A stretch of DNA of 64,000 bases, from NCBI RefSeq assembly GCF_965363235.1, contig NC_134842.1:31682958-31746957 (forward strand). The letters are read 5' to 3'. This DNA comes from Mytilus galloprovincialis (Eukaryota > Mollusca > Bivalvia > Mytilida > Mytilidae). The notes below the pieces were generated by a model. That model did no database searches and had not been told where the DNA came from. It saw only the letters and a list, made by a program, of their open reading frames with translations. Shown here in pieces: positions 16,307 to 58,312 of the stretch (position 1 is its first letter; each line of letters begins with the position of its first letter). The translations under genes and the position numbers were made by a program.

Positions 16307-17033
16307 TAGTGCGGTGACTGAAGGCAGATTTTTTGGAATTTAATCTCCCCACCGAACACACACCTACATAATATATCATTGGAAAGAAGAAATCGTGTAC
16401 TATAATAATATGCCTGTCGTCAGGGACTTGATATGGTCACATTTTTTTTAAATTGAGGTCAAAAGTCATATGTAAAAATCTGTGAAAGTTTGGGAGGGTT
16501 TCAATTTTGACATTTTTTTTCTATTTCTAAACTCTACTTAATATATACAAATGATACTGTTTTGGCTTTAGTAATGTTTGTTTTTATACATAAACCTTAA
16601 TCATTGAGATTTTTTTATAAAAAAAAATCCTAAAACGACGTTTTATAAACAAAACTTCAAAAATCAAGTTTTCAACCTATAAAATGTTTAAAGCACCTTA
16701 ACCTTATGAAAAATATCAATTTCAGGTAAAAATCAAGTGTCATGCAGGACAATACTTTAAAATTATTTTTTAAACTATCATAGTGGGTGAGTCATCAAAC
16801 CAAAGCCATAGAACACTACAGTCAAATATGACCTCAAATTGAATTTGCGGATACTTCAGTTTTGTTTTATAGACTACTCGTTGGTTTTGTTTTTTTTCAC
16901 AATTATTACTGCTCCCATAGTATTATCTTTTGTTGTGTATTTAACTCTGGTTAATATCTATTACATTATAGGTTTTGTAACTATATCCCCCTTTTTTCCC
17001 TTGCAACGTACCCCAAACTTCAAAAGTATTCCA

Positions 17034-17390
17034 TATAAAAAAAGAAGATGTGATATGATTGCAAATGAGATAACTCTCCAAATGAGACATAAAACAATTA
17101 TAGGTCCCGTACGGGCTTCAACAATGAGTAAAATTCATACTGCATAGTCTTCAATTCCCGAAATGAATAATGTAAAACAAACAAAAAATCTAACGACCTG
17201 ATTAATGTACAAAATAAATAAGAAAGAAAAAAATATAGTATATAGATAAAAACGACAAACACTGCATTACCGTCTCGTGACTTGAAACAGACACATACAG
17301 ATAATGGCGGGGTTTAACTTTTTTAAGGGCACGCCAACACTCCCCTAACCTCGGGACTGGAACCGTGTGTACCAGTGCAACAAGCTTTAT
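17034..17390 (+). repeat. Family A repeat, near full length
   Basis: GAAGATGTGATATGATTGC, ATAACTCTCCAAATGAGACA, TAGGTCCCGTACGGGC, CAACAATGAGTAAA, then a 3' part with CGACAAACACTGCATTACCG, ATAATGGCGGGGTTTAAC and CACTCCCCTAACC. Diverged from the other family A copies. It is inserted inside the large element at 16307-19856. Confidence 0.65.
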
Positions 17391-17639
17391 ACCAAATCAA
17401 CCGTTATCTCCATCATCTTTATTTTCATCAACTGTCACAAGACCTGTTTTAATATTTCTACACATTTCACTCATGGCCACAGGTCTGCACATGAAAGGTT
17501 CTGCTCAAAGCAAACACGTTATTTTGAGTACAGACAAGGTATTGTAGGAAGTCCGAAGACATTTGTTCCTAAAAAAATACCAGCTTCAAACCATCCCTAT
17601 CAATCCAAGATTTTAAAGGAGATCTAAAAGGGGGTTTAG

Positions 17640-18990
17640 GAAGGTGTGATGACATCCATATGCTTGTCAGCAAAGATGCTGGGGAAACATTATACGAGAC
17701 GTACACACTATCTTGAATTCGCTCAATTTCATGGTTGGCAACGCATTAGATAGCGTCGCACTTTACCTTAAGTAGCATAAAATCCATTGGCATTCAATGT
17801 TTCAACAAGTTGTTTTGAACCAAACTCATGGTACATTTGTAAAGCCAATCCTAAATGAAAAGGAGTAAAACAAAAACGATTGCATCAACAATTGCTTAGC
17901 ATTTCCACAATTTCTCTGGTGCCATTTCCTGAGAATAGTCTTGGCTGTATGCATTTTCATTGAGTAACCATAGAATGAATTGCAATAAATACGAAGGCAT
18001 TGGCTGAATTCAGAAGGAAGAGACAATTCATCCGAAGTTGGGTAGTCTTCTTTAGAGTTTCGATGTCTTTTCTAAGTAAACTTGCAGCGGAATGAAATAT
18101 CTGTCCGTTATTTGTGTCTATTTCAGTAGACATTGAGATTTTGAGGTCAGTTTTCAATTGACTAGAAGCTTATATGGCATCTTAAATAGTTATTTTGCTA
18201 CTAAATATTATGTTATATTTGCCTTGAACTTGTTGAAGTTGTTTGACAACTGAATTTCTATAGAAATAAATTAGTTTAGACTGCATTTTACATGTAGAAT
18301 ATTTTAAATTAGAATCAGCCGGAAGAAATGATCTATAGTTATCGAGTAACGGTGTCATGAGGAATGACCATTAAATCGTTGTCAATAGCCAAAATAAAAT
18401 TACTAAAAGCAGTATCGTGTTTTGAGATATCTGCTTCCACGGGTTTGGATTTTTTTTACGTTTTTAGCAAATAATTTGTAATGCAACCAAATTGACAGAG
18501 TGATTGAAGTTTAAAAGATGGACGGGAAACTATTTCAGCTTTAACTTTATCTGACACGGATAAAACATTTTTAATACGCTCATCTGATTCAAACTTGAGT
18601 ATTTTTTTTTATCTTTCTAAAATGTTTTGTTGCAACAAAATATACAAGCGCTCCAGTTGAACGACTGCATTCTAGAACGTGTACAAATACCCGAAACTGA
18701 GGGACAACAGTCAGATAATTGTATGTCGTCATTAAATATTAGACTAGAAGCTTCCTCGCTCTAAAAGGGGGAACAAATATGTTTACTTGTGTAAGTTTTG
18801 TAGCATGAACGATGATAAACTGCCTGCACGGAGTTCTTCTTTAAATTAACAGCTATTGCATGAAACAGCTTGATGTTCACCTCATTCAATCTTTTATGCA
18901 ATGAAGATACAAAAATCGACTTCCCTAAACTGGTAAATTGACTCAAAATTTTAATCGAGGTTTTTTTTTGGCTTATTATGCACTGCATAA
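17640..18990 (-). pseudogene. Decayed gene of an uncharacterised protein family (copy 1)
   Basis: Reading the minus strand from 18988 downward, recognisable blocks appear in order but in different frames: YHRSCYKTYTSK (about 18825-18785), NNGQIFHSAASLLRKDIE (about 18110-18050), LRKWHQRNCGNAKQLL, and GSKQLVETLNANGFYAT (about 17815-17765). From memory these match long, uncharacterised predicted proteins common in cnidarian and bivalve gene sets. The element at 53939-57904 carries other blocks that I place in the same family, also on its minus strand. The frame is broken repeatedly, so this is a dead copy. Its position inside terminal inverted repeats suggests that the protein belongs to a DNA transposon. 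No catalytic motif could be identified, and no function is claimed. Confidence 0.5.
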
Positions 18991-20102
18991 AATGTAACGA
19001 CTTTTGTCTTTTCTTTGAACTAAATAGAGCAAGTTACAAAGGACTTGACATATCACGGAATAGTTACTGAAACTATCCGTCAATTATTTTGATTTTACAG
19101 TAAGACTTTTCTGATAAAGTATATTTGATGTTTTATAACGAAAAAACATAGAATATAAACATATACAAACAAAGTATGTGGCATATATCAGTGCACTTTA
19201 ATAGAAAATATGTGTATATAATAGCGAAAAGGTAGTAATTTCATATATCATTTGAGAGCAAATTATTGACTAATACACAAAATGTGACGGAAGACAAGTG
19301 ATTGAGTTCCGTGAAGAAATTGAAGATTTTTACTCCATTCTTTTTTCATTGATTTCTTAAGGTTTTTTTCATATTTTGGTTTCGAAATTTTTATCACTAA
19401 TTTGTTTTATTAAATATTATATGCTTAAAATATTATGGGATATTTTTTATTACTACTATGAAGAGGGAACTAAAGTTTGAGTCTGAATTTGCAATTAAAA
19501 TTACCTCAATTTTAAATAGTCTAAACTTCGCAAATTTTATAGATTAGAAGAAAATAAAATACTGAATGGAATATTTGACATATAAAAATAGCTTCAGGAA
19601 AAACTATTTCAATTAAATATAAGCAAACATAAACATTTTTTTTTCATTTTGAAAAAGGGGGGTTGAAACTCTCCAATATACTACCAGTCATTAAAACGAC
19701 TTTTTAGAAAAAAGTGACCGTACGAAATTCTGACGACAGGGCAAAAACTAAAAAAGACTTATTTGTCTTTAAGTTAAGACCATTTTTAGCCGTGTGTTAT
19801 TTGGGGAGATTAAACTCGCGATCTAGACGACTTTTTACACTTCTGTCACCGCACTAATTTAGATGAACATGCGTAAATAACGTATTACATAATATACATG
19901 CTTAAAATGCTTTCAATCGACTCCTGTCGCACAGTGTATATAAATTAGATATAATCTCTAACCGGAAACTCTCGTTAAACGTTATTCATCATAAACACTT
20001 GCAATCAGGTAATAAACAGTTATAAGCCTGCTGGTGCCAGAGAAAAGAATCATATTATATAAATTAATAATATGCTAGTTTATTAAAGCTCACGATACTT
20101 CA

Positions 20103-20254
20103 CATGCTTGAAATATGTGCCACTGGTCGTTAAGCAATCAACTATAATTGATTAGTTTATAAATTGATTGGTTGTTGATTGCTTAACGCCCAGTTATTAA
20201 TAAATTGATTGATTGTTGATTGCTTAACGCCCAGTGGCACATATTTCAGGCATG
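20103..20254. mobile_element. Foldback MITE with a duplicated arm segment
   Basis: CATGCTTGAAATATGTGCC and ACTGGTCGTTAAGCAATCAA on the left are matched in reverse by TTGATTGCTTAACG, CCCAGTGGCACATATTTCAG and GCATG on the right. Part of the right arm (AAATTGATTG(G/A)TTGTTGATTGCTTAACG) occurs twice in tandem. No target duplication is certain. Confidence 0.65.
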
Positions 20255-21385
20255 TTAAAGACGAACTTTAAATATAATATGAAGATTCTTATACATTGCA
20301 CGAAATACGTTGAGAAATTTAAAAACAAGGGATCTCTTAAAAATCAATTTGTGATAATTGTTTAGCTAAATATTACGAAGCCTGACATCATGCTCCAACC
20401 TCCTCTCTGCGTCTAGTCAACAGACCCAAGGGCTAAAGATAAGGACGAAATCAACGATCAAGTGTGGTATAAACCCCGTATACTTCTCTCTTTAAACGAT
20501 GGGCTTGTGTAAAAACTGTTTCAGGAAACGGTGTTTTCACAGCTGGCAGCACATTATATACATGTAGGTAACACCAATCAGAAGAATCGCGGTTAAGAGC
20601 ATTTCGAAAATGAAAAGTTTTCTCTTAAATCTTGACTTTTATTGAAACGTGACAATGGTCAGATTGAACATGTTGAAGAGGTTGACCACTAAATATTTGA
20701 ATACAGCATAAGTGAAACTCTATCAGATACCCCAAAAAAAAGAAGACACATTTGCATTGTAAAAAACTTGTTTTAACAATGATTATTCTTAAGCCTGTAC
20801 AGACTGAGGATTGTCGACCATATTTAGTGGGTTTTTTTCAAAAACACATGTTCATGCGAAGAAGGTAATCTATAATTGCCTCGGTAGACGTTACTTTATT
20901 TTGGTTTCGAAATACATGTACTGAGTGACAGTAAATATGCACAATAACAACTGTTAGCTATTTTACTTTTTGTCATTTATTCAGAAATTACATAATTTCG
21001 ACATTTGATATTCTTTAGAAATTTATTGGTTTTGTCATGTTTGCTGCTATGCCAGAAAAATCCGACTGATTTTGTTATCATGTGATTCGAGATACACGCA
21101 CTCCGCCGACTTACCCCCTTCTTACCTTGTTTGTAAATTTCGTGCGATGCCAGCAGATGCTTATTCATTTTGATATTAATTTCAATTTTAGTAGTTAATC
21201 ATTTTAAAACTTGCACGTGTTTATCTCGTAATTCAATCTTGAAATTTCACTCTTATTAAATTATTACATGTACTTTCTACTGGCTTTAAATACATGGAAT
21301 GGTATGTTTATATTTCAATCGTTTAAATTAAACAAGAACATACTGTCATACTTTTAGGAGTTATTGTCCATATATACATGTTGTC

Positions 21386-21389
<4 letters not shown>

Positions 21390-21426
<37 letters not shown>

Positions 21427-21427
21427 A
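21390..21427. repeat. TA dinucleotide microsatellite
   Basis: About 14 uninterrupted TA units followed by a short broken TA tail. Confidence 0.9.
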
Positions 21428-22048
21428 GTACTAGAACACACCTGCGAAATCGCTGGAGTTTAGTGGTCCAAGGACACAGCTATCGTCCTTTGGTTTTCGA
21501 ATATAGTCCCTAGTGTAAACAGTGTATAACTTGCATGTTTTATTTGATACACTTTTCCAATTTATTTCTTGATATTAAATGAATGAAATATTAAGTAGGG
21601 GGATGTTATTACATGTTAAAAAAAATTGGGTACTGAATCTTTACATTAAGTAGTGATTTGGTCCAGTTCAAAAAGGTCAAATTTTTTCACGTCTGAAGCT
21701 GTCAAACTGAATTGTATCAATATTTTGAGTTAGAGCTGGTAGAAGTGTCTACAATTTTAATATTATTTGTCTCACTGGTAGTACACTACGCTGTAAAAAT
21801 CTTTTTGAGAAAGATCTAAGAGCAGGTGCGATTTTTTTAATTTGAATTTATTGTCTAAAAGAAATAACTGTGTTCTCGGGCCTAGTGCGTGATGAAGCAT
21901 ATATATACATTATTGAAGAATGAATTTTCCTAAAGGATTTTTCGACTGGAATTATGACTGCAAGCACGGCATAAAAGTCTTAGCCTGCGGGTACCGTGGA
22001 GACAGGACAATTTTTTAGCCCTCCCCCTTTTTCCAAAATCCGTTATTT

Positions 22049-22130
22049 TTTGTTTTCAGTTTTTCTGTATACTTTTTTGTTTTCAGTTTTTCTGTATACT
22101 TTTTTGTTTTCAGTTTTTCTGTATACTATG
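22049..22130 (+). repeat. Three tandem 27-base units
   Basis: TTTTTGTTTTCAGTTTTTCT plus GTATACT is repeated three times with almost no change, which suggests recent expansion. Confidence 0.85.
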
Positions 22131-23319
22131 AACATGAATATACTAAAAATAAAGTGTATTTGCTGTTTACTACCAATTCACTTTATATATATATGAATAT
22201 ATATGCGATAGGAATGTTAGAAGTCAGAACGGGATCAATCAGAAGTAGAGCGGGACATTTAGATTTCTTTTGGGAAGTTAGGTTATGGTGAATAGTGAAA
22301 GATTTTCCAAATTGAACCGAACGTGGTTGCAAACGAATACGACCCTCATAGCTGAACTTACACGTCGATACTTCATAGCTAAGGTTTTTTCGTTTTTTTT
22401 TTTTTGCGGAAACGGGAGATGTCTAAAGATAACATCACCGTATTTTTCTTTTATATCGCAGTCAATTATTTGGTTGTGTTCATTTTCCTAATAGTGGAGT
22501 GACAAATCGGGAAAAGTCGCTTAGTTAAGGAGTTTAATGGACCGAAATACCTCACGGCTGAAAATTCACATGAAGATAAACATTATACTTTCATTTTAGC
22601 CCTGTCGTAGAGTTTTCCCACGGTGCAGTTTTTTTTGTAAAATCGTGTAAAAGTGAGATTTTCTGATTTTTTTCATTTTCATTTTCAAACACGAGAACGC
22701 TTATAATTAATTCCCGATTGAAGATATCATAAACAAATTTGGTATCATATGAAAGAGTGATGTATCAGCTTTTATTTGACATCAAACTTTAATATCATAT
22801 GAACATATAAATTGAGTGAATTGGGACGATTTTCAAATGTATGTAACATTTTTGTCAATCTTACCGTCTATCAAAGTCTATTACATTTCTTATGTATATT
22901 ACCAATAGTAAATTTTCACAAAATATAGTGAAACAACCAATACTTAAGAAGTTTTGATATATAAAAGTTTGATAGAACATAAAAATCAACTTTTACGAGC
23001 ATTTTTATAAAACTCATCACATAGCAGTATTACTACTCAATTTTCACCTCAATGATTCATGTAACGTTCCCCTTTCCTATTTATCCCTATCATATGAAAT
23101 GCAATGACTTTAATATGCATTTTCCTAAGTTTTATAAAAAAGAATATATATTTGTATCAATAGTTGTGTCGATGTGCTTGAATAGGTACAGATGCTAAGG
23201 TTTAATAACTTTTGAGGTGCTTTTATTCTTGTTTTTCGAAAATACTAATTTTAAACCACATTGAAACACATCCGAACAATTCCGGAAAATTATTGTCGGT
23301 GTTAATTCAATTCAATAGT

Positions 23320-23546
23320 GGGTCTCATTCGGGTCTAAGCGTGACACGGGATTGCGTATTTTAAGTAAGCGTGAAACGTGAAAGTCAAATTATTGTGCCG
23401 TGAAAACGGGAAAGTCTATCGGGACACGGGAATTTACAAACAAAAAGAGAATTGCTTAGAATACGTATATAGTGTAATTAAGCGGGATACAGGAATCTGA
23501 CAAACCAGTAAGCGGGATCCGGGATCAGAACCCCCCAATGAGACCC
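23320..23546. mobile_element. Small MITE with GGGTCTCATT ends
   Basis: GGGTCTCATT (23320-23329) and AATGAGACCC (23537-23546) are inverted ends. The interior is rich in CGGGAT, CGTGAAA and CGGGAA motifs in both senses. No target duplication was recognised. It is inserted in the large element at 22492-26246. Confidence 0.6.
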
Positions 23547-24454
23547 CCTTAATAAGAACAAATAGAGTATCTTAGACCATGTTATTAAGCCTTTACATGT
23601 CCAAGAAGAAAACATGATCATGCATTTGAATTAGTGAGAGAGAAAAACCATGCGTGTAACGATGAATCAACTTTCGTTAAAACACGCTTCATGGCATTAC
23701 AATGACTGGTATAAAATGTCTATTCTGGAGACAAAAGTTATACAACAAGCTAAGCAATTAAGGTATGTTGAGTTATTTGTGTGTGCCAATATTGTTTTAA
23801 ATCAGTGACGCAAATTATCAGGCAGGCCATCTTGTGGTGATTTTACTCGTAATAAATAACTTCAAGGACAAGCCGCTTCAACATTCAGCTTGCACTTATT
23901 TGCAACTATTTGATGAAATAAAAAATCATTTGCTTCTGATGTTTTAAATTAATCGGGACATGATGTTGCTTTTCAAATACTACAGTACAGCATGTCTTCA
24001 TTCATTAAGTCTACAGGATGATTTGTTAGCGAAAGAAAGAAAAAAACATGTTCGTTGTCGTATAGCTTGTGACATTTACATTAATTTTGTTTACAGATAT
24101 TGTATTTTGTGAAAAAAAAATATGTAAAAAGATGTTTATGATCGTTCGAGATTTCAAATCATTTCTATCTTTACAATGAATTCCAACCTCTCTGGTAAAT
24201 ATTTTTTATATTATATTTAATATTTGCCTGGTTAGTAGATGACAATTTTTTCAAATGGATAATAATTACAATGCACTCTTATTTGATACTGAACGGAAAT
24301 GTATGCTCAGGCTGAGTGTGTGATATTCCTTTATGAAGAACTAGTACACCCCTGATCAAAAATATGGTATTGGTACTGTCCAAAGTCTTTATGTAAAATG
24401 GTACAGCAGTAACTGATATTGAGATTTGGCCAATGACTGCTTTAAAACCATAAC

Positions 24455-24692
24455 AAAATGATTGTGGTATGATTGCCAATTCGAAAAATCGCCACAAAAG
24501 ACAAAAAATTACACATATATTTACTACTATAGGTCACCGTACGGCCTTTAACAATAAGCAAAGCCCTTACCGCATAGTCGGCAATAAAGGGCCCGAATTG
24601 ACAAAAATAAAACAATTCAAACGAGAATGTGGCGATGTTGTACATGTCAGCGGGAGCCCACCCCTTTCCTTACATCGGACATTGGTGTATAT
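24455..24692 (+). repeat. Family A repeat
   Basis: TGTGGTATGATTGCCAAT, ACTATAGGTCACCGTACGGC, AACAATAAGCAAAGCCC, CCGCATAGTCGG, then AAACAATTCAAACGAGAA and a GGGAGCCCACCCC tail. It is directly followed by a second copy. Confidence 0.75.
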
Positions 24693-24695
24693 AAA

Positions 24696-24845
24696 AAGCA
24701 GATGTGGTATGATTGCCAATGGAATAACTCTTCACAAGAGATTAAAATGACACAGATATTAACAACTATAGGTTACCGCACGACCTTCAACAATGAGAAT
24801 ATCCCATACCACATAGTCAGCTATTAAAGGCGTCAAAGAGACAAT
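24696..24845 (+). repeat. Family A repeat, 5' part
   Basis: AGCAGATGTGGTATGATTGC, ATGACACAGATATTAACAAC, ATAGGTTACCGCACGACC and CACATAGTCAGCTATTAAAG. It lies in tandem with the previous copy, with only a few bases between. Confidence 0.75.
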
Positions 24846-25315
24846 AAGGTTTATTTCAAATGGTGGTAGGATGTCTGGCACACCAACAGAAACTTGCGGC
24901 GCTCTTACAGAATCTAATACGTCTTCTACAATCGAAATTGGCAAAAGAAGACAATAACAAGGGTGGGGAAAAACATGCATGTATCAACATTTGTCATTCT
25001 AGCTGTTGCTTATATTGACACATATTTTGGAGTGAAAATCACTTCACCGCGGATCAAATGATCCCAGAAGCAATGGTCAATCAGTACATGGTGATCTGAA
25101 TAAACTCATGAGTATTGTCGACGCCATACAAAGACATCCTCTTTTTTCTCTCTAGTATTACGTTACCTTTTCAAATTGATGTGCATATTGATGTCTAGTG
25201 ATAGTGTATTATAATTATACATTGACAGCAACTTCTGAAGCGTAATATCCATGTGAATCTTTATTTACATATATATCGGGCTTTCAAGTCTGCTATACAT
25301 TCCATTGTTTATAGA

Positions 25316-25527
25316 TATAAGAAGAGTATGAGTTCCAATGAGACATCAAGGTCATTTAACCATTAAAGGTCAAAGTACCGTCTTCAAAACGTAGCCTTGG
25401 CTCGTACCGAACAGTAAGGTCTCCAAAAATTGACTAGTGTTAATCCAATGCAATGGTATAATCTATATAAAAACTAGAAACGAGAAACATTTATGAACCA
25501 CATCAACAAACGACAACCTTGTCTGTT
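25316..25527 (+). repeat. Family B repeat
   Basis: TATAAGAAGAGTATGAG, CCATTAAAGGTCAAAGTACC, GTCTTCAAAACGTAGCCTTG, AAACTAGAAACGAGAAAC and CACATCAACAAACGACAACC are in the usual order. Confidence 0.65.
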
Positions 25528-26704
25528 GTTGTTTTATATAAAATTTAAAAAAGGGGGGACACATCTTCTCAATGTGCAATTGGTCTAGTACCGATTTATT
25601 TATTAAAATAAAAACAAACTTCATGTACTATAGTTTCATGAACATGAGGACTCATTTTTATAGTTCTTACATCCTTTTAAGTTTAAATAATCAGAAAAGA
25701 ATTTCATCATTTTTTTTCCATAACACCATGGACAGAGTGTAAACTTTACAGTTCTTATTTCTCCTCTGTTCTTTATGGCATTTTAACAAAACTTTCCCAA
25801 AAATATCTTTATATGTGGCCATATATTATTGCATAGCTAAATCTTAATTATGAATATTTTTGTCGATAATTTCCGTATATAAAGATATTTATTTCATTTT
25901 CGTACATGTTGCAAGCGAGGGTACGTATCACTTATATCTGGTAATCAGACATAAATATGACTAGCTGTATTTGTGGAGCATGCTTAGCGCATGCTTCCAT
26001 CGAAAAAAATCTCAGTTAACATGAGAGACTACCGAGTAATTGTCCAAAATGTCTAAAATTTGCAATTTTTTAAAATCCCCCCTTTTGACCTTTGAACGCA
26101 GTTTTCAAAAATCAGCACCACTTTGGCACTCTACGACATGCCTTAATCAAAGGATAGTATATTTATCTACAAAATAAGACCAAAATCAGCCATGAGGTAT
26201 TTCGGTCCATTAAATTTTCTAAGTTACCTTATTTGTCACCGTACTATAAAAGGGACCCTAGATGCGAGATATGTAAAAAAAAAAATAAAATACAATTATT
26301 TTTTTTGTTCAATTATTAATGAAAGTGAAACAGTGAAATAATATATAGCTTTTAGCAGCACGTATGGTTAAACTTTGTCAAAATAAGCTAAGAATCATCG
26401 ATAATGAATTATTCACTTGCATGCAAGAGATGGATACTCCATGCATTTTGCGTGTTTAGTTATTTAAAGGAAAAGAATGTCGACAACTATAGTACAAATA
26501 ACAGGTATACAAATCAATTTTTGCTTGTACAAATAAAGTCTCCTGTTACCCCACTTTCACGTTGAGCAAGCGCTAACATGAATGTTTCCTAATCAATTCA
26601 TTTTAGGATCCTCTTCGCGGTCCGCGTTTCAACTATGTCGATTTCTTTGAGAAATTAGAGACAATGATAAGTTGGAAATGTTGGGAGTAATTTCAGGATA
26701 AAAA

Positions 26705-45024: not shown

Positions 45025-48000
45025 ATGCACTTTTTATTTTCTTTGTCAGTATTTATTCCATTGATAAGTGGTCTTGTGCCAGTGCAGAACACAGAAGATG
45101 CTCTTATTCCTTTCCTTGTGCACGAGTTTGAGGATTTGAAAGGTCTTGTCGGAGATTTAAAGTCGAAACTTGAATCCGTAGGGAAGAAGGACAATGACCT
45201 TGCTAACGGATTGACATCAGCTGAAAACATCATCAAGGAACTAACCCAAAGTCATGACGGTAAATTAGTTTGTTTATACGCATACATGTCTGTACATATG
45301 TATACATGTACAATGAGGAAATTATAATTACAGTAATAACTGCATGACATTTTTATTAACAAATAAATGTAACTAACTATACAATTAAAAATCACTCATA
45401 GAAAAATCTAAAACCAAATCATTATTTGACAGCTTTGATTAATGCGTAAAGGGCACTGGTGGTAAGCGGATGGTCGTAACTAAAAGTTACGACCATCTGG
45501 AGATGGGAGACAACTCTAGGGATAAGTTTTTCTTTTCATATTTTTGTGCAGTAATAGGTTCATTTGAGCCAAACCGCTTGTCTTATATACACTTATTGTG
45601 AGTGAGTTGATATTGAAACCAAATTTGATAGACAAAATCATTCCAATTTTCGTAAAATAGTCATTCAAAAGTTGGAGCATGATGGTCGTAACTTTAAATG
45701 TGTGATGGTCGTAAATTCAACTATAATATTTTGGATGATGGTCGTAACTTTGAAAGATGACCGTAACTCGAGTATTTAGACAAACTTTTATTAATGTATT
45801 TTAAAAGTAAAAGTAATAAACTCAGATGTCATATATGATTTGTTACAAACAATATTATTTGTTACTATGATAATGGTATACAGAAATTGAGCTAAGAATT
45901 ATTAAACACACACAGTTCTGATGTATTCAAAACGCTCATCATTTAGGAGCAACAGTGAAAATTTATCAACTCGCATTGAGCCCAAAAAGTATGTTAGGGT
46001 TGAGTATTAATATATTTTTTACTGTACGTTAAGGCATAAAATTATCAAATGAACGTGTGTTCCCTCATATTTTTTTTTTTTCGACTTTTTTTCTGCAATC
46101 ATGTCGGCAGATGAAATTATTAAACGTACAATTCTGAACAATCATCGTTAACTTTTAATCAGCTATTGCAGTTCTTATAAACTATATGCCTTCAAATATT
46201 CGGCTTTTGGTGGTTCATGCGGAAATTAAATCCACAAATACACTTCGGAGTCCTGGGTTGAGTTCCATATCGTAGCAGCTACGTATAGTGCTACGTAGAT
46301 TTTGACTATTGAACGTGTAGCTATAGACAGTTGCTACATAGATATTGATAGCAGCTACGTAGCCGCTACGATATTGAACTCAACCCAGGATTTTTGAACG
46401 TGCTGTCTATTGTTTATCGATTACATAACGATTATATATAGCGGTCACTGCATGAAATGATGCATTTAATATCAAATTAAATGCATATGTTATGCATATT
46501 AAATTTCAAATTACAAAAAGTATTATGCATTTACTTTGCTGGAAAATTTCTAATTTAATATAGATTTAAACTAAATTTAATATTGCAAATAAATTCCCAA
46601 ATTTCAACCTAGTTTAAAGGTATTTTTAAATCTAAATAAATTTCAAATTTATATCATTGATATTAGTTCTAAGTATTGGTACGGAATGAAAACTGAATCC
46701 ATTGTGTCGCAATGAAAATTGTATTTATCTCGAAAGTAGGAATATTGTTGATATATATATATTTTACACTTCCACACGCGCTGACTTTAAGAGTAAAATA
46801 AAATACTAACTTGAAGCCAGGCTTAAGCTTGTAACCAGGATAATATGTCAGAGACTTAGGTAGAACTAAATGTACTGCGGCAACTATCACATACAAACCC
46901 CACGGTATGAAGATTGAACATTATGTGTATGTTATATGTTTATATTGTATGAATGGCTACACGCTACTCATGGACTTCGTAATGGACATAACTGTCCACC
47001 TTATTATCAGCTTGATTTCACCAAATAACAATATGACTTCTAAAAATCCAGGCTAAAAATAAAGCGTATGTTCTTTAACTCAGGTGCGGACCTGCGAATT
47101 CGCGGGAATGTTCTAGTCTAGATAACGACCTTCATAACCTATCAATATTAACTTTTAGATTATTTTGACTCCTTACTAATGCTCTTTCGACTTAATGTAT
47201 CAATCTTAAATTGTAGATTTTAAAAAAAATCAGCTAGTAGGTACATCCTCAAAAAGTTTTTACAATGTTAATCATGTTTATCTTTAACAAAGATGCAAAA
47301 TCTAAACAAGAAAAAAACAACCAGGATACTGTTATTTCATGTGATGTCCATTTACTAAATTGCCTTTCCTTAAAATCATTTATTTTGTAATTAAAAATGA
47401 TTTGATACATTTTGTGCTTTTTATTTCTAACTAAGAATTATCATAACCAAGGCTGTGTTTCTTGTTTTAAAATGAATTCTCCACTTTTGAGAAATTTACA
47501 TTGTTAATGAATTTAATCGCCTATACATTAATTCAACTATTTGCCTCTGGTTAGTTTTATACATTATATTTTCAGTATATATGACTGTCATTTCATTTTG
47601 TATTGTTTCGTTCGATTCGTTCCAATTTTCTTCCGTTTTGCACTTTACAGGTACCCCTCTATTCACCCCACTTTAGATTTTATCATTGGTGAAAACAACT
47701 TCACAATATATAATAATATATTCATATAATAAAAGACACGTTTAAAACTCTTGACTTGCCTTGTTCGGTCCAAAACATTTTAAAAATTTGGAATTTTAAA
47801 CCAATTTGAAACTTTAATCAAAATTCCCCCAAACTAATATTTAAAAACTTTTTTTAGAATTTCAATTGATAAGTGTTACACGGATTGAAATTGCTTTTTT
47901 TTTTTGCGTTGTATGTAAAAATTTAAAAAAATCTTCAGAAATACAACATATAATATATGCATATATTATACCAAAAAACATCAGAACAGGGATACCAAGT

Positions 48001-51000
48001 CTCCATTTACGAACTGTGACCTTGACATTCTATATCAAAATTTCTTGAAATTGGTACGGTAAAAGTTTCTAAAAATTTTTTTTTAGGATGGAACAATATG
48101 TAAAGTTAATTTAAATGTCATTTTTTAATGCTCTGCTAAAATATTCAGTTTTGAACTAGTGAAGATATAAAATTGACAAATTTTGGACTTTTCTCCTTTT
48201 TCTATTATTAGTAACAATAACACAGTTCTAAAAGTAGAATAGCAAAAAAACAATTTATTTTTTATGTTTAATTTTACAAGGTTACATGTAAGGTTCCTTT
48301 TAAAAGATAGATTAGTAAACTATACTATATAGATTTCTTAAAATTACATCCTATTAAAACCCCTTATCTGGCATTTGAGGACAAAAAAGGGGGGGCACTG
48401 TAACCCAGCTCTGCTGTTAACCTCAAATATTTTGCGGATTTTTATTTCATAGTAAGAACTCTTAGACCCCCCTACTTACAATCCTTGATAAAAATGTAAA
48501 TTATTTTGCTTGTTGTATATTGGCTAATTATGGGCCGAATACTTTAAAACTCTTGACTTGCCTTAGTCGGTCTTATTTAAAACAGAGTTACGACCATCAC
48601 ACATTTTCGTTACGACCATCCTCAACATTTTTGTTTTTTTAGTTACGACCATCATGCTCGAATTTTTGAATGAATATTTTACGAAAATTGGAATGTTTTA
48701 ATGCATCAAATTTGGTTTCAATATCTCCGAACCACCGAATAGTATGTATAAGACAAGCGGTTTGACACAAATGAACCTTTTACTGCACGAAAATCGGAAA
48801 GGAAAAACTTATCCCTAGAGTTGTCTCCCATCTCCGGATGGTCGTAACTTTTAGTTACGACCATCCGCTTACCACCAGTGAAAGGGGTGGTGAGCAGATG
48901 TACAATCATTAAGCGCAAGATAGCCTATCATGACAAAAAGATTAGAACGAATCATACCCATAACATTAATCAAAGCACTGACATTGACAACAAAACATTC
49001 AGCAACACAAATATTTCAAAATATAGGGGGCTGGATGTAGTGAGGAGGTGTCGATCTAAGATGCCCTGGATAAGTAGGCATTTTTTTCTCCACCATGGGC
49101 GCACGTAGAAGACTTCATTTTGAAGTAAAATCTGAAAGTCACCTTCCTGGTAATTACAAATGAAATGAAAACAACAGGATTATAACAGCGACAATTGGAA
49201 CATTATCTGAAGCCATCTTAAACAATGTGTATTCGATAAAGATCAAACAAACCCTTCAATCTAACTAAAACATTGATCTCTGATTACGTTATACTGCATA
49301 TGTATAATTACTATAGTATTAATGAATGGGTATTTTTATAATGGCCCTGTTATATGTCCAAGCTAAGGTCTGTAATAATGGTGGAGGAAGTCTGTGAGGG
49401 CCATTACAGACATCCAAGGCCATTATTACTGACCAAGGACATACAACAGGGCCATTATAAAAACACCCATTTCTTAATACATTTATTAACCAACTGAAAA
49501 AAGTGTATGTGTTGCTGCCAAATTGATGTACTCTCTTACTCTTTTAATGACAGTTTAGTTTCAAAAAAAAATAATTTGTACTTCACCATGATCAAGCTTA
49601 AAATATACCAAATATCCAAGATATTAAGTTGAAAGAAGTTATGTGTTGAAAAACAGGATGAACAGTGATCCCTTTATATGGTTCTTTAATGTTTGTTGCT
49701 GGTTACTAAATTAAATAAAAAACAAAAAGGTATTATACTCTTTACAGCTTAATTTTATAACTTTATTAAAAACCCTAACTGGGCTTAATACAGACAAGCT
49801 GGGCATTAATACAGGGCCATTACAGAAAAACAGGGCCATTACAGAAATAACTGGGCCATTACAGAAAGACAGGACCATTACAGTAAAACAGGGCCATTAC
49901 AGAAAAAAACAGGGCCATTACAGAAAAACAGGGCCATTACAGAAAATATGTGATTTTTAATAACCAGTCTTTTTTGGCCATAATGTACTTAGCTGGTTAA
50001 TAATATGTAGTATAACGTATTCAGAGATCAATATTTTTTTTAGATTGACAAACCCTTGTGGTGTAAATATTTACTGCTATCTAAATAGTGACCACCCTAT
50101 CATCCTATACCTGAATTTGCACGTTATTTTTTAAAGACACGGCTTTCAAATAATATGGCAGTAATTCATGATCATGTACAAAATCTGTATTACACCAGTT
50201 TGTAAGCACTCGTGGTTTTTGCTTACATTTTTATTATAGTTTTGTTGCTTTAAAATAATACAACTGTATGCTTACAATTTATAACTTACATATTTACATA
50301 TAATATATACATTAATTCTTTCTTTAGCTCACAGAAGGGCATTCACTGAGGCCCAGGTTGCTTTCTATGCCAAATTGTCTGCCAGTGTTCATGGACTTAG
50401 TCCTCACCAAACCATAATATTCGATGCTGTAAGTAGTTGTGTTTTTGTGCCGTATTATGTCATTTGATTTCTCGACTGTATCGATTCCGGTGCCACTGAA
50501 AAGTCCTATAAAGACGTGATATTGTTTAAAATACTACAATTTAAGCCACTCAATTCACAAAAAATCTTACGATAAATTTAATTATAACTTATACTATATA
50601 TGTATGAGTAACGAGTATTGTTACTCTTATGTTTTTTTGTGATTACATCCCAGCTCCTTTGTTCTAAAAGAGGTGATCTGAACCGGATCACCCCTACTAG
50701 ATCACCCCAGTTTGAGTTTCTTTGTTATGCATGCTTTCCTTTGTTCTGTAACATTTTGGCGGGAATGTCAAATCCACTATAAAACTTATAATTAATTATA
50801 CACGGTAAAGACTATCTATCAAAATTCACGTCGAAAAAAATACAGTGAATATGCTGGGATTCGAACTCAAGACCTTTAGCATATCAAGCCACGACACATA
50901 CCACTACACCAGGATGACTGGATACGAACTAGTAGTAATTTGACATACTTAAAGAAAGCAAGATCTTTTTATGAGTGGGACGAGTTGTCAGACCTTTATT

Positions 51001-52658
51001 CAGTGTGGTTTAAACCTTCTTCGTTAATAAGTCAGTTTTCAGACTGATTGTTCAATTTGAGTTTACACTTTTTCAAAAGTGGGGCCTGTCGATAAACAAG
51101 AGTGGGGCGGTTTTTTTTTTATAAAGTGGCGATATAGTGTGGGCCGACTATTGGCAAGTGGGGCGAGTTGACATTGTTTGATATCTGCTCATTGTGTTTG
51201 GGGGTCATAAAGTATATTGTAATGGTTGAGTGGCGTTCTAAACCAGATTTTATGAATTGTAAATGATTTTTCGTCTAATCTAAAACAACTCGGATGTAAA
51301 ATAGTTATCCCACCCGGACTTGGTGTGTCAGTGTAAGATCACCATCGGGGTGATCTTACACTGACACACCGCGTCCTTGAGGGATAACTATTTAAAAGAG
51401 TCGTGTGTTCTTACCTTTTTGCTTAGTAAAATATTAGTGTAAAAACGGGAAGCGCTAGGATTTAAAAACAACATGACTGTACAAATGATCAAGGTTAATC
51501 TTGAAAATCATTTCGGACGCATGGATTTTATAAATTTTTGTTTTCATTTATTGTAACCGTCTGCAGCAGATTATTGATGTTATGTTGCTGTTGTTTGTTG
51601 TTTCACATCTGCTAATGTTTAAATAACTAATACTGTTTCAGCTTGTAACAACAACACAGACATCACTTTATGATACGACAACTGGTATTTTTACCGCTCC
51701 AGTTTCCGGTATGTACGTCATTTCCTGGACAGCTAACGTCGACCATCATGAGTCACAGACAACAGAGCTAATGATTAATGGTAGATCTAAAGCTTGGAAC
51801 TTTGCTGACACTGCCGGAAGTGAAGACAGAGACTATGGAAGTGCCTCTCAGACCGTTGTCTTGCAGGTAATTATAATATGTCATCTGCAGAATTGCAGTT
51901 AGAACAAAAAAGCTGACACACCAGCATGGCGCTGCTCGCACATTTGTGTGGGATGCATGGAAACAAAGATCAACTGTGTCTGAAGGAAATTCAATGCCAA
52001 CGTTGGTTTAAGCACAATGACAACTTATGAAGAACAAAATCTCATTTAAATAATTTAAGTGGGTACAAGGATGAGGGTACATTGTACTGCTAGACTCGGA
52101 GACTTCGTGTTCATCAGCTACGGTACTGACACCGTGGGAGTAAACACAAATGATTTTATTTACGTCTTATTTAAAATAACCTCCATCAGGTATGATCATA
52201 GTCAAGTCGTTGGGGAGAAAAATATTTTAAACCGCTCAAGTATAAACACCAAAAGAATCTGAATACATGTAGTTAAAAATATCTGTTCTACATAAAGTGA
52301 AATGTGCCTGGGGGACTCATTGTACAAAGTGCATCATGTGAATAATACTAGATCCGATGGACAGGCTACTGGTCGGATAATGCGCGTCTGTACAAATAGT
52401 CCAACAGTAGTACATGTACCAGTATATTTGCTTAAAAGATACAAAACCGTAAAAGACGAATGTAAGACAAGGGCAGTTTATTCATTTTAATGTACATTGT
52501 CTATCACTGGGTATGTTAGTTAATGCCTTGTTGTTGTATTTCAGGTAAACAAAGGTGAGAATGTCTGGGTTCGAACTGGTACCAATGGTAAAGGCGATGT
52601 CAGCGGCCATGATTACAGCACATTCTCAGCATTTTTACTCTTCCCTCATTCTTTGTAG
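45025..52658 (+). CDS. Secreted C1q-domain-containing protein, four coding exons
   Basis: Exons 45025-45259, 50328-50428, 51642-51866 and 52545-52658 join in frame to 224 residues, with GT donors (GGTAAA, GTAAGT, GGTAAT) and AG acceptors after pyrimidine tracts. Residues 1-16 are a signal peptide (MHFLFSLSVFIPLISG). Residues 25-76 are heptad-like and probably form an oligomerising coiled coil. The C1q domain covers about 84-224: VAFYAKLS (89-96), TIIFD, GIFTAPVSGMYVISW (127-141), ELMINGRSKAW, GSASQTVVLQVNKGENVWVR, and the terminal STFSAFLLFP. Such proteins act outside the cell as pattern-recognition or opsonin-like lectins and are greatly expanded in mussels; the ligand here is unknown. Intron 1 is 5 kb because of two mobile elements. 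The first in-frame ATG after the conserved promoter was taken as the start. Confidence 0.9.
45454..48880. mobile_element. Foldback element with 6-base duplication, in intron 1 of C1q gene 1
   Basis: The left end CACTGGTGGTAAGCGGATGG and its reverse complement at the right (to 48880) are near perfect. AAAGGG lies on both sides (45448-45453, 48881-48886). The arms, about 300 bases, carry repeated GTTACGACCATC modules in both senses, plus GAGTTGTCTCCCATCTCC and ACGAAAATTGGAATG. The 2.8 kb centre includes a smaller MITE (46251-46390) and a direct repeat AAAACTCTTGACTTGCCTT (47740 and 48548). No transposase frame is visible. Confidence 0.75.
46251..46390. mobile_element. Small MITE, 140 bases, TCCTGGGTTGAGTTC ends
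   Basis: TCCTGGGTTGAGTTC and ATATCGTAGCAGCTACGTA on the left are matched in reverse by TACGTAGCCGCTACGATAT and GAACTCAACCCAGGA on the right. No target duplication recognised. Nested in the foldback element at 45454-48880. Confidence 0.7.
49257..50047. mobile_element. MULE-like TIR element with 10-base duplication, in intron 1 of C1q gene 1
   Basis: CAATCTAACTAAAACATTGA on the left and TCAATATTTTTTTTAGATTG-like sequence on the right are inverted; inward, TCTCTGATTACGTTATACT matches AGTATAACGTATTCAGAGA. ACAAACCCTT flanks both sides exactly (49247-49256, 50048-50057). A 9-11-base duplication is typical of Mutator-like elements. The interior has a second palindrome (49325-49480, TTTTTATAATGGCCCTGTTA and its reverse) and a tandem array (49800-49943). 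Non-coding, 791 bases. Confidence 0.8.
49800..49943 (+). repeat. Tandem array of about 20-base units
   Basis: Seven or so units of ACAGGGCCATTACAGAAAA with small length changes, inside the MULE-like element. The GGGCCATTA core also occurs in the element's inner palindrome, from which the array probably grew. Confidence 0.85.
51285..51405. repeat. Strong hairpin in intron 2 of C1q gene 1
   Basis: AAATAGTTATCCC, GGTGTGTCAGTGTAAGATC and ACC are followed after four or five bases by a perfect reverse complement, then GGGATAACTATTT. The inner 22-base stem is exact. Probably a very young or gene-converted MITE; the ends and duplication are not clear. Confidence 0.7.
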
Positions 52659-52693
52659 ATATTTGCTTATAAAGTCGGGTATCTTTTGTGTAT

Positions 52694-52699
52694 AATAAA
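52694..52699 (+). terminator. Polyadenylation signal of C1q gene 1
   Basis: AATAAA about 36 bases after the stop codon, in an AT-rich 3' flank. Confidence 0.6.
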
Positions 52700-52857
52700 T
52701 TTGAAAAATATAGCGCTCTTTTGTTGAAATAAATTACCATTGGTATGATTATATTCATACAGTATCTGCTTTTGAATTGTTCGACAAACTATTTTACTTG
52801 AGTTTCGCTGATGGTTCTTTTGGGGAGAAACGCGCGTCTTGCCTACACATCACATAT

Positions 52858-52992
52858 ATAAAAAAAGAAGATGTGGTATGATTGCTAATGAGACAACTGT
52901 CCACAAGAGACCAAAATGACACAGACATTAACAACTATAGGTCACCGTACGGCCTTCAACAATGAGCAAAGCCCATACCGCATAGTCAGCTA
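52858..52992 (+). repeat. Family A repeat, 5' part
   Basis: A clean copy of the 5' half: GAAGATGTGGTATGATTGC, GAGACAACTGTCCACAAGAG, ACTATAGGTCACCGTACGGC and ATACCGCATAGTCAGCTAC. A family F fragment (52802-52850) lies directly before it. Confidence 0.8.
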
Positions 52993-53170
52993 CATGCCTC
53001 TTTGGTGACTTTTTTCAATATTGTATGGTGTTGATATCATTTATAATTATGTTCTGTTTCACGTTAACTAAATGTTTCCATGTTACTTTCTGGCCTTTAA
53101 GTTGAGTACACATTTTTGTTCAATGTGTTAACATTGTCAATACTGAAAATGTACAGCGTCAGCTGTAAAC

Positions 53171-53617
53171 CCCGGTGGTTACTCCCTATATTTCTAGTGG
53201 CTTTGTGTGCCGCAAAACTGGGTCACTTTTTCATGCCCTGATGGTTAGAACAGGTGGTCGCTTTTTCATGTCCTGCTGGTTAATACAGGGTCGCTTTTTC
53301 ATGCCCTGCTGGTGAGAACAGGGTATATATTTTTTTAACAAAGTATTTGTCTAAAACAGTGTCTCTTACTCAACTGTTTAAGATACAGTCTAGAACCGGT
53401 TTTTGAACTGCATATATTTTATACGGTCTAGAACAGGGTATACATATTTTGAGCATGTATAGAACAGGGTATGTTTTTCAATATTTTTTGTTTAGAACAG
53501 GGTATGTTTTTCAATACTTTTTGTTTAGAACATGGTATGTTTTTCAATGTTTTCTTGTTAGAACAGGGTATGATTTCGGCTTAGTTATACCCAAAAGGAT
53601 AATCAGTAACCCCCGGG
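53171..53617. mobile_element. hAT-like MITE with 8-base duplication
   Basis: The left end CCCGGTGGTTACT and reversed right end CCCGGGGGTTACT are inverted. CTGTAAAC flanks both sides exactly (53163-53170, 53618-53625), the 8-base length typical of hAT. The interior is made of AGAACAGGGTATG and GGTCGCTTTTTCATGCCCTG direct repeats. Short open frames in it follow the repeat period. Confidence 0.75.
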
Positions 53618-53899
53618 CTGTAAACATACATGTACATTTGTTATCATGTATATGATTGTAATGTAATAGGTTAATCTTCACTATGTTTCCAACCACTGGG
53701 TCGATGTCAATGTAGATGGAGTTTTTAATCCCCGAGGGTATCACCAGCCAAGTAGTCAGCACTTCTTTGTTGTCACGAATTACCATTGATATGGTCATAA
53801 TTATAAATTAACTATTTACAGAACTTTGATCTTTTTTAAATACTAATGCTTTTCAACCTCAGGAATATAACACTTTAGATAAATTTGGCAAAATTTTTT

Positions 53900-53938
53900 T
53901 GATTTTTTTGTCCTCAGTGCTCTCCAACTTTGTACTTT
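53900..53938 (+). repeat. Family F repeat, left piece, split by element 2
   Basis: CAGTGCTCTCCAACTTTGTAC reads as the left part of family F. The right part (TTTATTTGGCCCTTGTAAC, TTTTTGATTCGAGAGTCAC) resumes at 57905-57950, so element 2 inserted into a family F copy. Confidence 0.6.
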
Positions 53939-55240
53939 TAGTCCAGCGGATATCAGAATAATTGATCACTTTATGGTAAAAGCATGAAACTTGGCATAGT
54001 GAAAGTTGAAGGGGTATAGACGAAATTCAGATATGAAGCCACGAAAACAAATCCAATATGGCGCCAAATTCAAGATGGCCGACATAAGTATAACATCATT
54101 CACTTGATGGAATTTTAATGACTCCACAAGATGTCACAAACTTAAGGAAATACAACTAAGATATGTCAACTATTTTTTTTTAAACTTTATAATACAGAAA
54201 TCATCAAAATGACGTCCAAATTTAAAATGGCTCGTCAAAATGTCTGAATTTGATAGTATTAGTATGTATACACAATAATTTTGTGCTAGAAAGTTATCAA
54301 ATCCGTAAAACTGATCATTTGATATACACATAGGCCTATAATGTATCATTTATACCTGGGTGCATGGATTATATTTTCAAAATAGCGGCTATATTCAAAA
54401 TGGTGCCGATTAACATGTCAAAATTTGATGTTTGTTAAAGTATGGTATGAAATTATTTAAAAAGTTATGGATCATACATTTCTATACAAGTACGTATTAT
54501 ATATATGCAAACATATTATTATTTAATGTAACATGTGACATTAACTATGAAATTAAAATGGCCGATACAACTCAAAATGGCGCCTTTGGCGAGTTCTTAT
54601 TTTTAACAGATACAGGTAATAACCATAGAAAATGCACAATTTGCCTGTTGACAACACTGTTGCCGGAAGGAATGCTCTGTGGGTTTTTGGATTAGTTTTT
54701 GGTAAAAGGAAGCATATCACGCAGTTAAATTAGCAGCCATCATGAATAGTTGGTGTGATCTAAAGCAAAGAATCAAGAGATGCTCTTGGAGAGAGCTTCA
54801 ATATATAATAAAAAGTTAGCCTCACGTATAGACCTTATAAATATTAATATTGTCAATTCAAATTGGAGGGTTATATACTATAATTTAAAATGAGGAGATT
54901 CTTTAGATCGGTCGATCCAAACACAACTCTCCAAATCCTAAGATAACCTCAATACATCTTTGTACTGGCATAACGCCTTTTGCAATAGACGGTAAAGTGT
55001 GCACACCGTAACTTGGTGAGCTCTATGTGTTTTTTGTAACACGAGAAGCCTTTACGAATGAATCAGCTGTACCTGGTGATGTAACATGTACATTTACTAA
55101 AACACTAGCACTCCACTCCACTACCTTCAAGACAACTATCAAGAGCTTTGAAAGCAGCCATTTCAATGTTTAGGCCAATGAACATCATGATAGAGTTTTC
55201 CTCATCATACATTTGAAGCTAGTTTATTGTATTAGTTTTG

Positions 55241-56730
55241 CTACCGTGAAATGGGGTTGATCAAAGCAACAACTGGAGTTTGGCCTGGATTAAGCTTTCT
55301 TACAGCGCTATAAATAATGTTCAATGAATGTTGTATTTTCCCAACTGATTTTGTTTGCTCATGAATTAGAGGTAGAAGGGCAGACACTGCTGGTATTTTT
55401 CCCATCTGGCAGTACTGCAACAGAATAGGCGGATTATGAAATATTTGTACCCACTCTAGCCTTAACACTTGAATTTCCCGAATCATGTTTCAGCCATTTG
55501 AATTCCCCTTTTGATGCACGTGGGAATTAGAACATAATGATTAAAATTTCTCCTTCAACTAATGAGGTATCTGATTCGCTCAATCTTAGAACAGCTGGTG
55601 GAGGATTTGAATAACTCTCTGGTAAAAAGAAACTCTTTTTGACTGGCATTTCAACATAGAATCAGATTGGTCAAATGTTTGAACACACCTTGAACATCAT
55701 CTGAAATATCTTTCAATAAAGAGATGCATGTACCATGGAATTAATCTTTTGACGATATACTGCTTGGATTGTGGTCAATGTTGTCTAATTTAGATGAAGT
55801 AAATACATTTTGTAGTAGGTTAGCAGGGCAAACAATATTGCATTGGCCATAGAAATAGAAATGTCTAACACTCGGTCGTAGGAGACAGGTAGTCCAAGTT
55901 TAAAGATAGTATCTACTAATCACGTTTTCTAGTCTTACAGTGTATGGATCATGATTCCCAAATGAGCACAATCTGGAGGTACATGATATGGACGGTTGGA
56001 TAGTTTCTTTGTACAACTATACATCAGAAGCTGTGCTATTGTTAATGTAGACTAAGAATATGAACGATCCTAAATGTTGGGTCCAAACTGAATCATACTG
56101 ACCAAAAAAAGCATTGACTGGGGTACAGAAGCTTCCTGATATTCCTTTGGAAAGGTTCCTTTAAATTCCGAATTTAATTCGAAAATATCATTACGAACAA
56201 ACGTACAGTAGCTGCTTTTAATATGTTGACCAACTCATTATCAAAGTCTTCTAAAAAGTAAACTAAAAAAAATACTGAACTCCGAGGAAAATTCAAATCG
56301 GAAAGTCCCTAACCAAACGGCAAAATCAAATTATAAAACACATCAAACAAACAGACACCAACTGTCATATTCTTGACTTGGTAAGGCATTCTCAAATGTA
56401 GTAAATAGTGGATTGAACCGACTCTTCAATGAAGGACCAATGTCATCTTTCAAATCAAGAATGTTTTCACGGTCTTGATTGTAAGCATCTAAGTCAGGGA
56501 AAATAGATACACATCTGTCTTTTAGTCGAGAACTATAAACTCAAAATTAAACATCTGCACCTAGACATGTTATTTTTTTCCATATACAGTTTACATAGAT
56601 CTGACAACTTGTAAACACTGATGGTCTCATCGCATGACCTTGTTTCATTTATATAAGAGACTAGTTCTGAAAATGCAATACCATGGATTTGTCTTTCCTT
56701 CTTAGATTCGACAATATCATTTTTCATTTC
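55241..56730 (-). pseudogene. Decayed gene of an uncharacterised protein family (copy 2)
   Basis: On the minus strand, from 56727 downward: HGIAFSELVSYINE and SVYKLSDLCKLYMEK (about 56680-56575), an acidic FKDD-type block near 56440, then from 55486 a conserved stretch with IPAVSALLPLIHEQTKS and YSAVRKLNPGQTPVVAL (about 55390-55260). I recall these blocks, in this order, from long uncharacterised predicted proteins of bivalves and cnidarians. Copy 1 (17640-18990) shows other blocks of what I take to be the same family, largely complementary to these. The frame is broken and a family D repeat sits in the middle. No catalytic residues can be assigned. Confidence 0.5.
56263..56415 (+). repeat. 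Family D interspersed repeat
   Basis: AACTCCGAGGAAAATTCAAA, CGGAAAGTCCCTAACC, GGCAAAATCAAATTATAAAA, CACCAACTGTCATATTC and TTGACTTGGTAAGGCATT. Other copies: 61104-61225, 63450-63650, and a 3' fragment at 58313-58420. Inserted inside the decayed gene of element 2. Confidence 0.7.
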
Positions 56731-57159
56731 AATTCGAGATGCTCGTTTATATAAGGAAACTAAACATTTAGAGTGGTGTGGTACTTTGCTTCCTGTGCAA
56801 TTAAATCACTAGCGCTTTACTTTGCAAGTAACAACGTGTCATTTAATTTAGTGGTCATTCTCTTAGACGTGTATCTTGACCAAATGTTGAGGACTAATGA
56901 AAGACTTCTTGTTCATTTTCATTACAGAAGAACCAAACAGACTGGTTATTGGGAACTAAACGGAAAAGCTATATCTAGTTTTCTTTTTAGATGAGGTTGC
57001 TTTATCATCTATTCTCTCATGTGAGGTTTGTTTTTCAGCTCTATTCAACTTTGTTTTGTTGAGTTTTAAGTTGCAATATTTGTGCCACCATACTTTGTGG
57101 TCAATGAAAGACTGTGCTATTCCAGATCTCTCATTTTAGTTTTCAATGCACACATAAAT

Positions 57160-57890
57160 GCCTTTAGGCATCAATCGTAATTCATGAAACTTCTTAATAT
57201 TGTCAGCTGGACTATATAAAGTGATCAATTATATCAATTTTTTGGACTCTTCTTTTCGAATTTTGGCGGCCATTTTGAATTTGTTGGCCATTATGGAATT
57301 ATTTTTGATTGTTCCGTATTGAGAAAAGAATAATAAGCATCATAACTAGCAATCTGTTAAGTTTTGTGCTTTTATATTCAATTGATCAATTAAACCATTT
57401 TTGTGGACTCTGCCTCATCACTGTTGGCGGCCATTGTAAAGTTGGTGGCCATTTTGGATTTTCTATTTATAACTCCATACCCCAAAATCTTAACTTCATG
57501 TAACACTGTGCAACGTTTCATGCTTTTACCATGAAATGATCAATTCTAATAATTTTTTGGACTATATAGTATGATTTTTGTCGGCCATTTTGAATTTGTC
57601 GGCCATTATGGAATTATTTTTGATTGTTCCATATTCGGAAAAGATTAATTAGCATTATAAGTACATGTAGCTATATGTAAAGTTTTGTGCCTTTATATCG
57701 AAATGACCAATTAAACCATTTTTTGGACTCTGCCTCATGACTGTTGGCGGCCATTCTGAAATTGGCGGCTGTTGTGGATTTTTTTTCTGATGGCTCTTTA
57801 TCCAAGATTGTTAATAAGCATCATAGCTAACACTGTGCAAAGTTTCATGCTTTTACCATAAAAAGACCAATTGTCCCAAAATATAAGACC
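57160..57890 (+). repeat. Subterminal tandem units of about 165 bases in element 2
   Basis: Four units start with TTTTTGGACT (57238, 57402, 57556, 57720), followed by GGCGGCCATT, a GTTCC or TCCAT block, and TTTTGTGC or TTTCATGC with TTTTA(C/T)A. Alternating units are more alike, giving a higher-order period of about 320 bases. The left arm has related sequence in inverse sense (AAGATGGCCGAC, AAAATGGCGCC). Confidence 0.65.
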
Positions 57891-58312
57891 TAGTTGCTGG
57901 ACTATTTATTTGGCCCTTGTAACCTTTTTGATTCGAGAGTCACAGATTGTACTGGCCGGACCAGTGAGTGTAACCAAGATGACTGGGTTTAAGTAAGGAT
58001 AAAACAATCAGGAGCTGACTTTTATTTTACTACCAATCCAAATGGGGGAAAACTGAAAATACAAATATAAATACAATTTTACAATGTGTTCAATGATAAT
58101 TAAAGTCCATTAAAAATACGGATAAACAGTTCGTAGATATATAAAGCTATTAATGTTCTTTATAATAACAAATGGATGAATATTCTTGTAATACAGTTAA
58201 TATTTCAGTATATGCGTCGAGTATAAATATAACTTATCGGCTTACGTTTATAGCAAACATTTTCAATTCTGTTTTGTTATGACCATATGAAGTTTAAAAT
58301 GACAATTACACC

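Follow-up and report, generated by a model that had tools for sequence, protein, structure and literature searches.

Three large intervals, here called e1, e2 and e3, lie in a 64,000-nucleotide stretch of the genome of the mussel Mytilus galloprovincialis (assembly GCF_965363235.1, contig NC_134842.1, positions 31,682,958 to 31,746,957; hereafter the window). Each begins with TAGT, ends with ACTA and is flanked on both sides by the same 3-base word, with bounds that are exact to the base (Table 1), and each carries remains of a gene for a very long protein. An earlier note on this DNA had drawn attention to the three intervals and their flanks, and had proposed a family of long uncharacterised proteins as the gene product of a group of DNA transposons. 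The three intervals are very probably copies, decayed or internally deleted, of DNA transposons that move by cut-and-paste and belong to a single superfamily, most likely Academ and, within it, the AcademX branch.

The terminal inverted match over the first 12 bases is complete in e1 (12/12) and extends to 9/12 in both e2 and e3. Within the window alone, however, such end pairs are no commoner than chance. Nine TAGT..ACTA pairs with a spacing of 2-8 kb, an inverted match of at least 9/12 and equal flanking 3-mers were counted in the window, versus 3 to 13 in 10 dinucleotide shuffles; the window was therefore rejected as proof. It is the dispersed copies elsewhere in the genome (1.385 Gb in 331 contigs; those met are numbered C1 to C14 and measure 73-133 Mb) that decide that the ends and duplications are real. 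A search with the first 600 bases of e1 returned 576 first-look candidates, and the 40 that were scored are all 95-100% identical. Twenty copies were fetched; both ends are present in 19 (the right end of L019 is not in its fetched stretch), and 16 of the 19 are flanked by an exact 3-bp duplication. The duplicated words differ among copies, and the chance of equal 3-mers is about 0.022 per copy by base composition. The start of e2 has 362 candidates in the genome. Seven of its copies were probed, and the three in which both ends were found (on C9, C2 and C8) are all duplicated at their flanks. Among the rows listed, a right-end partner accompanies 15 of the 40 listed e2-type left ends at distances of 2048 to 4782 bp. 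For the start of e3, with 350 candidates, both ends were obtained for five copies besides that of the window (on C1, C3, C6 and at 91 and 97 Mb on C2), and all five show the duplication. The coordinates and flanks given in the earlier note were borne out. In a pool of 31 duplications, from which the three e1 copies lacking a match are excluded, A stands third in 23 and T stands first in 20, a tendency towards T-N-A targets.

Ends of this kind enclose well-kept members of the protein family. Searching the genome with a single e3 block produced 94 matches, several of them in long open frames. When 40 of 41 rows of e3-type termini were compared with 61 of the 94 protein matches, 27 of the 40 listed termini, the window's own included, had a protein match within 9 kb, always on the inner side; at least two pairs of these e3-type places resemble duplicated regions. 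One well-kept example is a 5821-bp element at C4:41788789-41794609, which runs from TAGTGGAAGATATTA to TAATATCTCCCACTA between TAA/TAA and contains a 1280-codon open frame, the N-terminal 211 codons of the gene lying upstream in another frame. On C1, a 4423-bp interval with e3-type ends and TGT/TGT flanks has a stretch of 683 open codons, beyond which the gene is disrupted. A 98-residue probe run against the whole genome matched the proteins of the e3 lineage (E 1.6e-14) and also C13:16126948, which has a 1625-codon open frame and sits 2.07 kb inward of the e2-type left end at C13:16124878. The right end was located at 16131658, and the element at C13:16124878-16131658 therefore measures 6781 bp, with e2-type ends, TAA/TAA flanks and the 1625-codon frame. 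Comparisons with the C13 protein cover 483 N-terminal (L087) and 399 C-terminal residues (L089), both open. The long frames at C13 and C4, together with the broken gene at C1, are what the earlier note had suggested looking for between such ends, and they support its proposal that the uncharacterised family is encoded by a group of DNA transposons.

With these proteins as queries, relics of the gene were recognised in all three elements of the window. L087 aligns with the e1 relic by tblastn at 30% identity over 428 columns (E 3e-39), and the proteins L044, L045 and P0002, the last of 1280 residues, match the e3 relic with E down to 1e-86. The earlier note had placed relics in e1 and e3, as is the case, and had listed none for e2, which carries one too: the best piece of the e2 relic scores 38.1 bits, and across 200 dinucleotide shuffles of e2 the highest score was 29.3. 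In e1 no match to the catalytic core was found between the two relic pieces, and because these lie 70 bases apart e1 is regarded as an element without the core. In e3 the C-terminal part of the gene was not found, and past the P0002 match only a 16-residue piece of the following region was matched.

Table 1. Features of the window (position 1 is its first base).
Feature	Positions	Strand	Basis
e1, probable non-autonomous, internally deleted Academ-like DNA transposon, 3550 bp	16307..19856	-	ends, ATT/ATT, genome copies; relic gene on minus strand
e1 relic, putative transposase, N-terminal part (contains YHRSCYKTYTSK, NNGQIFHSAASLL)	17747..18946	-	tblastn with C13 protein L087
e1 relic, C-terminal part	17527..17676	-	tblastn with L089, 48% over 52 residues, E 3.6e-8
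e2, probable decayed, shortened element of the lineage of the C13 element, 3755 bp	22492..26246	+	ends, TAA/TAA, copies on C9, C2 and C8, end type of C13
e2 relic, putative transposase, N-terminal part	23556..24413	+	tblastn; pieces 23556-23702, 23714-23893, 24168-24413
e2 short weak relic, C-terminal part, 16 residues	25060..25107	+	E 0.005
e3, probable decayed element of the second lineage, 3966 bp	53939..57904	-	ends, TTT/TTT, proteins near e3-type termini
e3 relic, putative transposase, N-terminal Cys/His part onwards, ending just short of HEQNN (contains KLSDLCKLY, VRKLNPGQTPVV)	54644..57213	-	tblastn
Target duplication ATT, left of e1	16304..16306	.	sequence
Target duplication ATT, right of e1	19857..19859	.	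sequence
Target duplication TAA, left of e2	22489..22491	.	sequence
Target duplication TAA, right of e2	26247..26249	.	sequence
Target duplication TTT, left of e3	53936..53938	.	sequence
Target duplication TTT, right of e3	57905..57907	.	sequence

Judging from the best-kept elements (5.8 kb on C4 and 6.8 kb on C13), the full protein would be about 1500-1600 residues long. From the N-terminus it is predicted to consist of modules rich in Cys and His, a putative DDE core (DNxD ... DQPL ... HEQNN), C-terminal motifs in an XPG-like series (EEADTR ... DTDV ... GCD) and, last, a Cys-rich tail of CXC-like pattern. Across ten loci picked because their open frames are long, some of which are closely related, DNxD and DQPL are present in 10/10 and HEQNN in 9/10, while EEADTR, DTDV and GCD occur in 10/10 loci spanning them. 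The D...D...E series of the core may represent the catalytic triad. The C-terminal acids follow the motif order of the FEN/XPG nucleases, which suggests that this part of the protein may be a nuclease. The tail resembles the LIN54-type CXC domain in its pattern of cysteines, the match being weak (E 0.07). With E values up to 10 allowed, neither P0002 nor either of the two C13 pieces matched a Pfam family, and no Pfam model of a helicase was matched in P0002 or in the N- and C-terminal C13 pieces, the middle of the C13 protein being excluded. Searches of PHROGs and viral contigs gave no informative match.

Comparison of the encoded proteins places e1 and e2 in one lineage and e3 in another, distant one, within a single protein superfamily. 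The link between the lineages was made through the C13 protein, because the direct comparison of e1 with e3 is weak. Searched against a set of only 9 short records, the C13 protein matches proteins of the e3 lineage with E 1e-11 to 8e-8. The genome-wide 98-residue probe likewise recovers both lineages, and their proteins can be aligned in the N-terminal as well as the C-terminal part. Six C-terminal parts, when aligned, are 29-31% identical to C13; EEADTR, DTDV, GCD and GKK do not vary among them, and five of the six rows have the Cys-rich tail. Within the first lineage, e1-type right ends in L083 and L084 resemble subterminal sequence of e2, with 72-73% identity along about 124 columns (E 0.004). 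The suggestion that the relics come from one protein family therefore holds at the level of the superfamily, whereas e1 and e3 are not close relatives.

Other members of the family were encountered in the genome. Loci L069-L071 and others are decayed copies of the core, many in number among the 150 scored of 846 first-look candidates, with about 40-47% identity, frames near 150 codons and several stops; they suggest a further high-copy dead lineage. Near one decayed copy, at L069, the minus strand has a 273-codon open frame with collagen-like Gly-X-Y repeats. Two loci on C14, at 63.05 Mb (L052) and 64.84 Mb (L053), have frames of 772 codons and common flanking DNA, and were counted as one insertion in a probably duplicated region because the flank is common to both; a left end was looked for at this pair and not found.

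The constant ends, the 3-bp duplications and the large number of dispersed sites are in keeping with a cut-and-paste element of the DDE type. The transposase would bind the inverted ends, excise the element and join it to target DNA cut with a stagger of 3 bp, in many cases where T and A prevail. From the sequences we infer this chemistry, the catalytic residues and the nuclease activity. The copies of e1 add a further step to the scheme. Fifteen copies of 3400-3700 bp, the window's included, are 1.3-3.8% off their majority sequence, in which the longest open stretch is about 100 codons versus 1625 in the C13 relative. Because the majority sequence of these near-identical copies opens so few codons, the gene would already have been broken when e1 spread, and we infer that e1 was mobilised in trans by a transposase supplied from elsewhere. 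Loci L083-L085 represent an older subfamily of e1, with which they share about 90% identity, and are likewise broken. Two of these three copies, L083 and L085, retain both ends flanked by 3-bp duplications, and the left end of L084 is outside its stretch.

Academ is a little-studied superfamily, reportedly set out by Kapitonov and Jurka in 2010 and by Kojima in 2020. PIF/Harbinger and Zator elements also make 3-bp duplications and have a recognisable Pfam transposase domain; no Pfam family was matched here at E up to 10, and a distant member could still escape such models. In the excerpted description of Academ, AcademX elements have duplications of 3 or 4 bp and AcademH elements of 9 or 10 bp, this difference is related to nuclease and helicase, and an extra nuclease domain is suspected of setting the length of the duplication (PMC10045372). 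Other excerpts report a bivalve-specific amplification of Academ, with 100 curated sequences of mean length 5565 bp (PMC10294476), and list Academ-1 in a clam genome (PMC8905726). The elements described here resemble AcademX, as far as these excerpts characterise it, in their 3-bp duplications, long gene and nuclease-like C-terminal motifs and in that no helicase model was matched; their size of 5.8-6.8 kb and their bivalve host are in line with reported Academ. The relation to a nuclease is seen here in motif order alone. AcademX elements are further marked by a DDD/E transposase of RNase H fold and a nuclease domain of XPG type; what was observed for these is the motifs of the putative core and of the C-terminal part, with no sequence match in Pfam or PDB. 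Duplications within the 3-4 bp given for AcademX were found in the e1 (16/19), e2 (3/3) and e3 (5/5) copies and, as TAA/TAA, in the C13 and C4 elements. AcademH would have the same transposase core if the Academ assignment is right, but in the excerpt it encodes a helicase and makes duplications of 9-10 bp (PMC10045372), whereas the duplications here are of 3 bp and no helicase model was matched; the elements are thus unlike AcademH on both counts. In the published passages on Academ that were consulted, TAGT...ACTA was not found stated as a typical terminus. The name Academ (AcademX) is probable and not proven, because no Academ sequence could be compared, and the elements are probably a new member of a superfamily that has already been named.

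Several observations weigh against this assignment or against the unity of the three elements. Three of the 19 e1 copies (L014, L015 and L022) have no exact duplication, and no empty insertion site was seen. Thirteen of the 40 e3-type termini are without a listed protein match nearby, and a core match lies within 9 kb of just 4 of the 40 e2-type left ends (among the 150 scored of 360 candidates); such scarcity is expected if most copies are deleted, which is not proof. Direct tblastn of e1 against e3 gave nothing significant. Profile hidden Markov models of the two reach E 0.06 at best versus all frames; when just 9 pieces are searched the value is E 8e-5, and the hhalign probability of 7% is likewise weak. 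The apparent link of e1 and e2 to e3 thus rests on the C13 protein. For the presumed nuclease, a profile built from host exons of XPG-, FEN1- and EXO1-like type failed to set the C-terminal domain apart from shuffled sequence. Nine real targets were ranked together with 800 shuffles; the highest of the real ones came 13th and 15th, and hhalign gave a probability of 0.6%. Sequence searches of Pfam, NCBIfam and PDB returned chance-level rows alone and no informative match to a DDE core or an XPG fold.

Some of these observations lend themselves to a different reading, in which the elements belong to a separate, unnamed DDE superfamily that is Academ-like in duplication length and gene length alone. 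The lack of any Pfam family for the 1280-residue protein or the C13 pieces speaks for it, as do an XPG relation at the level of motifs and the fact that Academ is known here by descriptions. In its broadest form it would imply a large eukaryotic superfamily outside Pfam, with TAGT...ACTA ends and 3-bp duplications, that joins a DDE-type core, an XPG-like nuclease and a CXC-type DNA-binding tail in one protein of 1500-1600 residues and may be the source of many 'uncharacterised proteins' of bivalves and cnidarians. The combination of duplication length, nuclease-like motifs, no helicase model, length and abundance in bivalves, however, fits AcademX as excerpted (PMC10045372, PMC10294476), and both the separate superfamily and its broad form are unlikely.

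CACTA/EnSpm elements were weighed because e1 reads TAGTG...CACTA. They too have 3-bp duplications, and both ends of e1 and the left end of e2 read CACTA outwards. The duplications, however, set the outer base as the T of TAGT, so that the element starts with TAGT and not CACTA, its termini being inverted relative to CACTA; e3, moreover, starts with TAGTCC. The excerpted definition of EnSpm termini is 5'-CAC..GTG-3' (PMC12730594), a form not found here, and the Pfam search revealed no CACTA transposase domain. An identity with EnSpm/CACTA is very improbable and is ruled out by the element boundaries. The least credible reading is that host genes captured terminal-like repeats by chance and that the intervals are unrelated. 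It draws on the chance level of matching ends with equal 3-mers in the window alone, and is refuted by the copy and flank data: there are many dispersed copies with like ends and duplications, and genes of the family lie inside such ends at C13, C4 and C1.

A long protein family without a Pfam model becomes the probable transposase of elements with defined ends and well-kept copies, and such proteins should therefore not be counted as host genes. The elements also supply testable termini and genes for the superfamily to which they probably belong.

Two kinds of repeat were noted in and around the elements of the window. A repeat common to e1 (17049-17156) and e2 (24463-24586 and 24703-24825) is 74-78% alike among its units, those in e2 being about 240 bases apart, and is presumably a common interspersed mussel repeat. 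A 27-base tandem unit in three perfect copies occupies positions 22046-22127, about 365 bases outside e2.

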